This document shows positions 6,582 to 6,667 of a stretch of 22,211 nt of DNA, piece after piece. Both the position numbers and the translations under genes were made by a program. Each line of letters starts with the position of its first letter. Position 1 is the first letter of the stretch. Source of the DNA: a virus. The stretch spans positions 1 to 22,211 of IMG/VR virus record IMGVR_UViG_3300032006_001002; one strand, written 5' to 3'. Below the pieces are notes generated by a model, which did not search any database, was not told the origin of the DNA, and saw only the letters and a list, made by a program, of their open reading frames with translations.

Positions 6582-6667
6582 TGTGAGGTGACGAAACTGG
6601 TAAACGTGTCAGTCTGTTTAACTGATGTTCCTGGCGGGACTTGAAGGTTCGACTCCTTCCCTCACAG
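6582..6667 (+). tRNA. tRNA with long variable arm, Leu-like body and anticodon GUU (Asn)
   Basis: A full cloverleaf can be drawn. The acceptor is 6582-6588 paired with 6660-6666. The D arm is ACG/CGT with an 11-nt loop holding TGGTA. The anticodon stem TCAGT/ACTGA encloses the loop CTGTTTA (anticodon GTT at 6616-6618). The long variable arm has stem GTTCC/GGGAC, and the T arm GAAGG/CCTTC has loop TTCGACT. There is no encoded CCA. The long variable arm and the D arm are those of bacterial tRNA-Leu. However, the anticodon reads AAC/AAU (Asn), the first pair is U1-A72 and the discriminator is G73, all as in E. coli tRNA-Asn. U37 after the anticodon is abnormal, since a purine is expected. It follows the AsnRS-like gene by 9 nt and must be cut from the same transcript. 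It could instead be a decaying tRNA-Leu. Confidence 0.8.

Follow-up and report, generated by a model that had tools for sequence, protein, structure and literature searches.

The window, i.e. the whole stretch of viral DNA analysed here (22,211 nucleotides), carries on its plus strand a synthetase-like gene, hereafter called X, followed by a tRNA gene. The following features were assigned:

5778..6572, plus strand: X, encoding a 264-residue class II aminoacyl-tRNA synthetase catalytic core, AsnRS-like, PHROG 29758 (function unknown), from Pfam, PHROG, AlphaFold2 and structural match
6573..6581, plus strand: spacer of 9 bases separating the X stop codon from the first base of the tRNA, by direct reading
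6582..6667, plus strand: tRNA gene with Asn identity (GUU) and a long variable arm, CCA not encoded, from ARAGORN, RF00005, covariation and relatives
6616..6618, plus strand: anticodon GUU, in 77/77 close and 37/38 distant relatives
6619..6619, plus strand: U37 where a purine is usual, in 77/77 close and 27/38 distant relatives (A37 in 8, G37 in 3)
6626..6642, plus strand: long variable region of 17 nt, from direct reading and relatives
6667..6667, plus strand: discriminator G73, in 115/115 readable tRNAs among the matches listed in a search blind to X

Given the 9-base spacer, X and the tRNA are probably carried by one transcript. Within about 20 nt 3' of the tRNA, many loci display a short CTATTTA-like motif (at about 6675-6690 in the window), possibly a promoter element or the complement of one. 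At 6770-6789 the window also holds a ribosome-binding-site-like GAGGAGAA, then an ATG immediately followed by TAA (6784-6789).

The tRNA was called as tRNA-Asn(gtt) at 6581-6668 by ARAGORN and matched the Rfam model RF00005 at 6582-6667 over all 71 model positions, scoring 50.9 bits (E=1.9e-8) where the gathering threshold is 29. It is 86 nt long, its relatives ranging from 73 to 108 nt. Direct reading and comparison with tRNA-Leu genes gave U1-A72 as the first pair and a Leu-type D arm. Single-sequence folding returned the cloverleaf with z=-1.27, 25 of 200 shuffles folding equally well. As such a fold is no better than chance by itself, proof was sought in the comparison of relatives. In an alignment of 33 distinct relatives, the 24 pairs of the cloverleaf comprised 786 cells, 99.9% of which were paired. 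Twenty-two of the 24 pairs had changed on both sides, none of 500 shuffles did as well, and controls with a slid register paired at only 40-51%. All 5 anticodon-stem pairs covary around a GUU that is invariant in the 33 tRNAs, so that no alternative register with a Leu or Ser anticodon exists. With a score above the RF00005 gathering threshold and a covarying cloverleaf, the tRNA is real, and it is under strong selection, its stems varying while its anticodon stays fixed.

A preliminary description of the locus had noted the long variable arm, the Leu-like D arm, GUU, U1-A72, G73 and U37, and direct reading confirmed each of them; its view of the gene as a Leu-like body bearing Asn identity elements was borne out. 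The better fold with a Leu or Ser anticodon for which it had allowed is not possible in the light of ARAGORN, Rfam and covariation, and the alignment with homologous phage tRNAs that it had proposed gave covarying stems around a constant anticodon. It had also considered misreading and a decoy role, which seem unlikely, and a decaying tRNA-Leu. The Leu-like D and variable arms would suit decay, but the nearly complete pairing (99.9% of cells) and the covariation of 22 of 24 pairs reduce its probability to a practically negligible one. Among the features that had seemed odd, U37 and the long arm remain so, while U1-A72 and G73 are unremarkable once the tRNA is read as tRNA-Asn, because E. coli tRNA-Asn has both.

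The sections of PMC9976931 on which we drew give the anticodon and G73 as the bacterial Asn identity, and the window tRNA has both. According to the same sections, U1-A72 allows the amidotransferase to act on Asp-tRNA(Asn), whereas G1-C72 and U20a of tRNA-Asp oppose it; A73 specifies Leu, the change of A73 to G73 confers Ser identity, and in yeast t6A37 bars the aspartylation of tRNA-Asn. The role of U1-A72 with GatCAB also appears in the relevant part of PMC4206432. With GUU, G73 and U1-A72, the window tRNA thus carries the signals for Asn charging and amidation, set on a Leu-like body in which the base needed for t6A is replaced. It has GUU, U1-A72 and G73 in common with E. coli asnT, from which it differs by its long variable arm, its Leu-like D arm, U37 instead of A37 (as in 77/77 close relatives) and the synthetase-like gene alongside. 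With bacterial tRNA-Leu it shares the long variable arm, the D arm and the general shape, and it departs from it by U1-A72 and by G73 and GUU in place of A73 and a Leu anticodon.

X itself was overlooked in the preliminary description, whose suggestion of a dedicated enzyme was the right lead: this AsnRS-like gene ends 9 bases before the tRNA and, among the matches listed, is found with it wherever there is room. The protein matches PF00152 (class II Asp/Asn/Lys-tRNA synthetase domain) with 52.9 bits against 25 (E=3.9e-14) and consists of the catalytic core alone, 264 residues without an anticodon-binding domain. An AlphaFold2 model built with 35 diverse X sequences reached a pLDDT of 92.4. 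Its best structural matches were chains of AsnRS in complex with Asn-adenylate or an analogue of it (Z 26.1, 2.2 Å, 241 residues), followed by AspRS (Z 25.1), AS-A (23.8), EpmA (23.4) and LysRS (22.8), Z values within 1 counting as tied. Over 120 representatives, R88, E90, H98, F102, D187, E194, G197, R201 and R257, which we take to be class II residues of the ATP site, are at least 98% conserved, as are Q64 and E68, presumably AsnRS-type pocket residues. The AsnRS-type Q-x-x-x-E that these two form is thus kept in X, whereas E. coli AspRS has a lysine there; the segment TGQMWLE of X aligns with SGQLNGE of E. coli AsnRS and SPQLFKQ of AspRS, an alignment that is motif-based since hhalign gives 15 and 19%. 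From the model and these residues, X is predicted to be an ATP-using, asparagine-binding class II ligase.

X could be compared with several known systems. It has the class II fold, the ATP site and the Asn-type pocket motif in common with AsnRS (AsnS), and differs from it by the missing anticodon-binding domain and by a score of 15.9 bits against the AsnRS equivalog TIGR00457 (cut-off 342.6). Archaeal AS-A is likewise a free-standing Asp/Asn-synthetase-type core of similar size, but X is linked to a tRNA in phages and scores 19.2 bits with the asparagine synthetase A model NF005055 (cut-off 389). EpmA/GenX, another free-standing class IIb core, acts on an unusual acceptor; X scores 23.5 bits with its model NF006828, whose cut-off is 264. 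PylRS-tRNA(Pyl) is a known case of a dedicated synthetase adjoining a structurally odd tRNA. X and its tRNA resemble this pair in both respects and differ from it by a sense anticodon, an Asx-type enzyme and relatives in pyrimidine operons. The top viral structural match to X was a pithovirus protein named Asp/Asn-tRNA synthetase (BFVD A0A481Z9R2, 42% identical), so that the family may extend to giant viruses.

Relatives of X were found in at least 598 stretches of viral contigs, the best 80 of which were used, and in 9 of 50,697 phage records, namely P-SSM2, P-SSM5 and P-SSM7 (82-84% identical) and huge-phage records (47-48%). The Prochlorococcus phage records label it 'tRNA ligase': the T4-GC 194 of P-SSM2 and P-SSM7, so named in PMC3037559, is X (82-84% identical). 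The part of that paper (Sullivan et al. 2010) available to us describes T4-GC 194 as a sporadic gene present in 2/16 cyanophages, makes no mention of a tRNA pairing, and gives a single tRNA for the 252 kb of P-SSM2. In the open-licence PMC literature, we found no paper that links X to this tRNA or to pyrimidine synthesis. Judged by the relatives of X and the gene order of P-SSM7, the window phage is probably a T4-like cyanophage.

The close type of X locus comprises 84 loci (L001-L083 and the window). A complete tRNA lies 3' of X in 77 of them (41 distinct sequences), and the other 7 are limited by the contig end, 4 being cut within the tRNA and 3 stopping before it. Counted from the first stop-codon base of X, the tRNA starts after 10-20 bases in 73/77 loci and after 91-93 bases in 4/77, with a median of 12 over the 77. 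All 77 tRNAs have U1-A72, GUU and U37, and 9 have C33. G73 served as a filter in the surveys of close and distant loci. In a search blind to X, viral contigs were scanned with the tRNA pattern, including U37, and at least 119 stretches were recovered, which partly overlap L001-L167. Among the matches listed, X was located upstream in 112/112 loci with room for it, 7 being too near the contig end, and G73 and U1-A72, neither of which was filtered here, were present in 115/115 readable tRNAs. The tRNA was detected in 6 of the 50,697 phage records, all of which have X; in P-SSM2 and P-SSM7 it was found at 91-97 bits with the tRNA model R1.

Two details of annotation and spacing were noted. In AY939844.2 (P-SSM2, L081) a tRNA-Asn is annotated at 164094-164179, while its sequence actually lies at 162083-162168, directly 3' of X; in GU071092.1 the tRNA annotation agrees with the sequence position. 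In L019, L041, L070 and L079, X and the tRNA lie on either side of an insertion of about 80 nt that contains the inverted repeat AAAGATGGTC...GACCATCTTT.

The distant viral loci were also 84 in number (L084-L167), some contigs occurring twice. Such a tRNA was identified within 700 nt in 38 of them and in none of 44 others, the last 2 being too short. The anticodon of these 38 tRNAs is GUU in 37 and GUC in 1 (L123), position 37 is U in 27, A in 8 and G in 3, the first pair is U-A in 34 and A-U in 4, and CCA is encoded in 32. The X-linked tRNAs of L103, L109, L111, L132 and L147 have a short variable loop, that of L109 being a canonical tRNA-Asn overlapping the end of X, and in L092 a tRNA-Asn is located about 1 kb downstream of X. 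The contig of L136 (G041) encodes, in trans to X, a GUU tRNA that has a long arm and A37. In two huge phages no special tRNA was seen near X, and the Asn and Asp tRNAs in the tRNA clusters retrieved from them have an ordinary length. In a quick tree of 123 representatives, the tRNA-linked phage X fall in several places among the cellular rows. At the level of sequence and gene order, X and the tRNA belong together, and the tRNA most likely serves X as its RNA partner.

The gene context of X and the tRNA differs among phages, which implies that the X-tRNA piece moves. The tRNA bodies are exchanged as well: L007 and the window are 91% identical in X and 69% in the tRNA, while L007 and L022 are 86% identical in X and 100% in the tRNA. 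Because bodies swap between close X genes, similar X having different bodies and different X the same body, the variable arm is unlikely to be the recognition handle of X.

Other tRNAs were observed in X-bearing phages. The stretch L402 (113000-119500 of G028, the contig of L088) holds seven tRNA-Leu (tag, cag, gag, taa twice, aag and caa) and no other tRNA within the stretch read. In two further X-carrying phages (L398 on G042, and L385-L390 on LR756501), ARAGORN called Pyl(cta), together with Stop(tta) in LR756501; these are possible stop-codon readers.

X is also found in cells. A genome scan gave 129 X-encoding stretches, and in the 80 that were analysed X belongs to Patescibacteria, DPANN archaea, Dependentiae, Chlamydiae, Gammaproteobacteria, Midichloriaceae, Saprospiraceae, Chitinophagales, Pasteurella atlantica and others. 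Two cellular-genome loci, L221 and L228, have the tRNA with X and may be phage-derived; no such tRNA was found within 700 nt of most cellular X loci. When 48 cellular genomes and 2 phage records were searched by pattern, true tRNAs emerged in L221, L228 and two Chitinophagales only. Using model R1 on 23 cellular genomes, the resolved best matches were ordinary tRNAs, mostly tRNA-Leu, with the exception of L280. The two Chitinophagales, one of which is L280, encode X and, in trans, a chromosomal long-arm tRNA with GUC, U37, U1-A72, G73 and CCA; GUC together with U1-A72 is what one would want in a tRNA loaded by AspRS and amidated by GatCAB. Near this tRNA lie ORFs, named by eye, that we take to be RsmI-like and cytochrome-oxidase-like. 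In Pasteurella atlantica 50/50 tRNAs are ordinary, so that X cannot strictly require a special tRNA in this species. Given this case and the X loci without a tRNA, X does not always depend on a special tRNA, which these genomes suggest to be a common, not a universal, companion of X.

Clustering of the neighbours within about 5 kb placed PyrE/PyrF-like proteins beside X in 26/80 cellular loci and PyrD-like proteins in 20/80. Pfam confirmed OMP decarboxylase (L184 and phage L137), DHODH (L192, L186 and L182) and PRPP synthetase (L192). The label 'PyrE-like' comes from the clustering: the PRTase of L184 scores 24 against a Pfam cut-off of 26.3, and L137 has a related short protein without Pfam match. 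The gene order is X, pyrF, pyrE-like, pyrD, prs in Bandiella, and pyrF, PEP carboxykinase, small gene, short PRTase-like gene, X, tRNA in phage L137. At positions 2220-4963 of L137, X and the tRNA thus have as neighbours the genes of an OMP decarboxylase and of an ATP-dependent PEP carboxykinase; no cyanophage match was found for its PyrF. In the window phage no pyr gene adjoins X. The tRNA-linked and pyr-linked X share 55% identity on average, where pyr-linked X among themselves share 56%. No positions other than 47 (V/I) and 119 (M/L), both conservative, distinguish the two sets at 70% or more. The window X is 49-64% identical to pyr-linked X. On the strength of these comparisons, we take X to catalyse the same reaction in the phage (tRNA) and cellular (pyr) settings.

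The pyrimidine pathway was surveyed in 26 X genomes, 25 of which had been chosen for their pyr-type neighbours, and in 14 controls. In the X genomes, which are mostly MAGs and may be incomplete, matches above cut-off were obtained in 0/26 for PyrB (14/14 controls), 3/26 for CarB (14/14 controls) and 0/26 for class I PyrC (11/14 controls). Class II PyrC was above cut-off in 0/26 X genomes, with one near miss (283.7 versus 293), and in 1/14 controls. AsnRS was present in 11/26 X genomes. PyrB-like matches of 104-148 bits in 4/26 were taken for putative ornithine carbamoyltransferase, and the class I PyrC homologues below cut-off (181-261 bits) in 9/26 may be true dihydroorotases. Several of the 26 genomes are large (4.4-7.8 Mb). 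In Pasteurellaceae, PyrB was above cut-off in 0/81 genomes and X present in only 3/81, so that PyrB loss is not tied to X in this family and fails as an X-specific mark. The gain of an X-pyrF cassette in Pasteurellaceae fits a pathway repair and does not prove one.

The explanation that we tentatively favour, as quite possible rather than probable, is that the tRNA is an asparagine carrier made together with an asparagine-using ligase, X, and that the pair likely serves to supply the infected cell with pyrimidines. X and the tRNA would form a two-gene cassette in which the tRNA, made on the transcript of X, carries asparagine for X; X would either charge the tRNA itself or use Asn loaded on it by host enzymes. 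The tRNA would have kept GUU and G73 as the features read by Asn-charging enzymes and, for the conversion of Asp-tRNA into Asn-tRNA by GatCAB, the required U1-A72 pair, and with U37 and sometimes C33 it would be expected to decode AAY codons poorly. A tRNA that host enzymes load and X uses would agree with U37, with the constant U1-A72 and with an Asx anticodon that stays fixed even though X lacks a domain for reading it. The end use is suggested by the cellular context of X. The selection on the tRNA, its association with X, the fold and conserved residues of X and the pyr neighbours of cellular X are documented; the amino acid, the direction of its transfer and the end use are inferred. Counting against this explanation are the 44/84 distant viral loci and most cellular loci, which have no such tRNA within 700 nt, the 50/50 ordinary tRNAs of Pasteurella atlantica, the 4/38 distant tRNAs with A1-U72, the Pasteurellaceae (PyrB 0/81 versus X 3/81), the window X with no adjoining pyr gene, the PyrF of L137 with no cyanophage match, the PyrC homologues below cut-off in 9/26 X genomes, and the fact that most of these genomes are MAGs and may be incomplete. 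A more specific proposal, which we hold to be rather unlikely, is that X is a pyrimidine entry enzyme replacing CarAB, PyrB and mostly PyrC, by which Asn, CO2 and ATP would yield dihydroorotate (N3 coming from the side-chain amide); phage X would draw its Asn from the dedicated tRNA, loaded by host AspRS/AsnRS and GatCAB.

The simplest and main rival is a private AsnRS-tRNA pair for translation, X charging the tRNA with Asn so that AAC and AAU are read when the host tRNA-Asn or AsnRS is cut or limiting, while the odd body and loop avoid host enzymes. The AsnRS-like fold of the predicted model, the Asn identity elements and the adjacency of X to the tRNA all speak for such a pair, and phages often carry tRNAs. 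We consider it doubtful, if a serious possibility, because the same enzyme, with 2 conservative differences only, is found in cellular pyr operons, because the anticodon is fixed and the arm variable although X has no anticodon-binding domain, and because AAY decoding would suffer from U37; the Asn codon choice of the window is moreover unremarkable (AAC 19% versus GAC 19% of Asp). The occurrence of X with no special tRNA in Pasteurella, pyr operons and huge phages would be expected if X were tRNA-independent and converted free Asn or Asp into a pyrimidine precursor, the tRNA offsetting the Asn drain or aiding decoding. The linkage at about 10 nt, the 112/112 tRNA loci among the matches listed and the repetition of the pairing in separate branches of the X tree make this clearly improbable; furthermore, a drained amino acid would not be restored by an extra tRNA, and U37 is poor for decoding.

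The mobility of the piece through varying phage contexts and the swapping of tRNA bodies between close X genes are also compatible with X and the tRNA being unrelated neighbours, co-transferred as one piece of DNA. However, GUU, U1-A72, G73 and U37 stay while the bodies swap, distant branches pair X with other bodies, even with the canonical tRNA-Asn overlapping X in L109, and long-arm Asx tRNAs occur in trans in the L136 phage and the two Chitinophagales, all of which renders mere neighbourhood very unlikely. Charging by the host SerRS through the long arm and G73, giving Ser at Asn codons or a decoy, would agree with the report, in the sections of PMC9976931 used here, that A73 to G73 makes tRNA-Leu a Ser acceptor. 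As the arm varies freely in length and sequence, and the variable loop is short in some tRNAs paired with X (L103, L109, L111, L132 and L147), we regard it as extremely unlikely.

Rather than a broken gene, the X-tRNA pair may thus be a metabolic module that has escaped recognition. The window tRNA combines Asn identity with a foreign body to an extreme degree, yet it is conserved in many marine phage contigs, and its pairing with X offers a testable function for PHROG 29758, a synthetase-like family so far without one. If the pyrimidine reading is true, it would explain how UMP is synthesised in bacteria with X and without CarB and PyrB, and it would mean that phages put a sense-codon tRNA to metabolic use. 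If X is a pyrimidine entry enzyme, then with the phage tRNA it would lead from an amino acid to nucleotides by a tRNA-dependent route.
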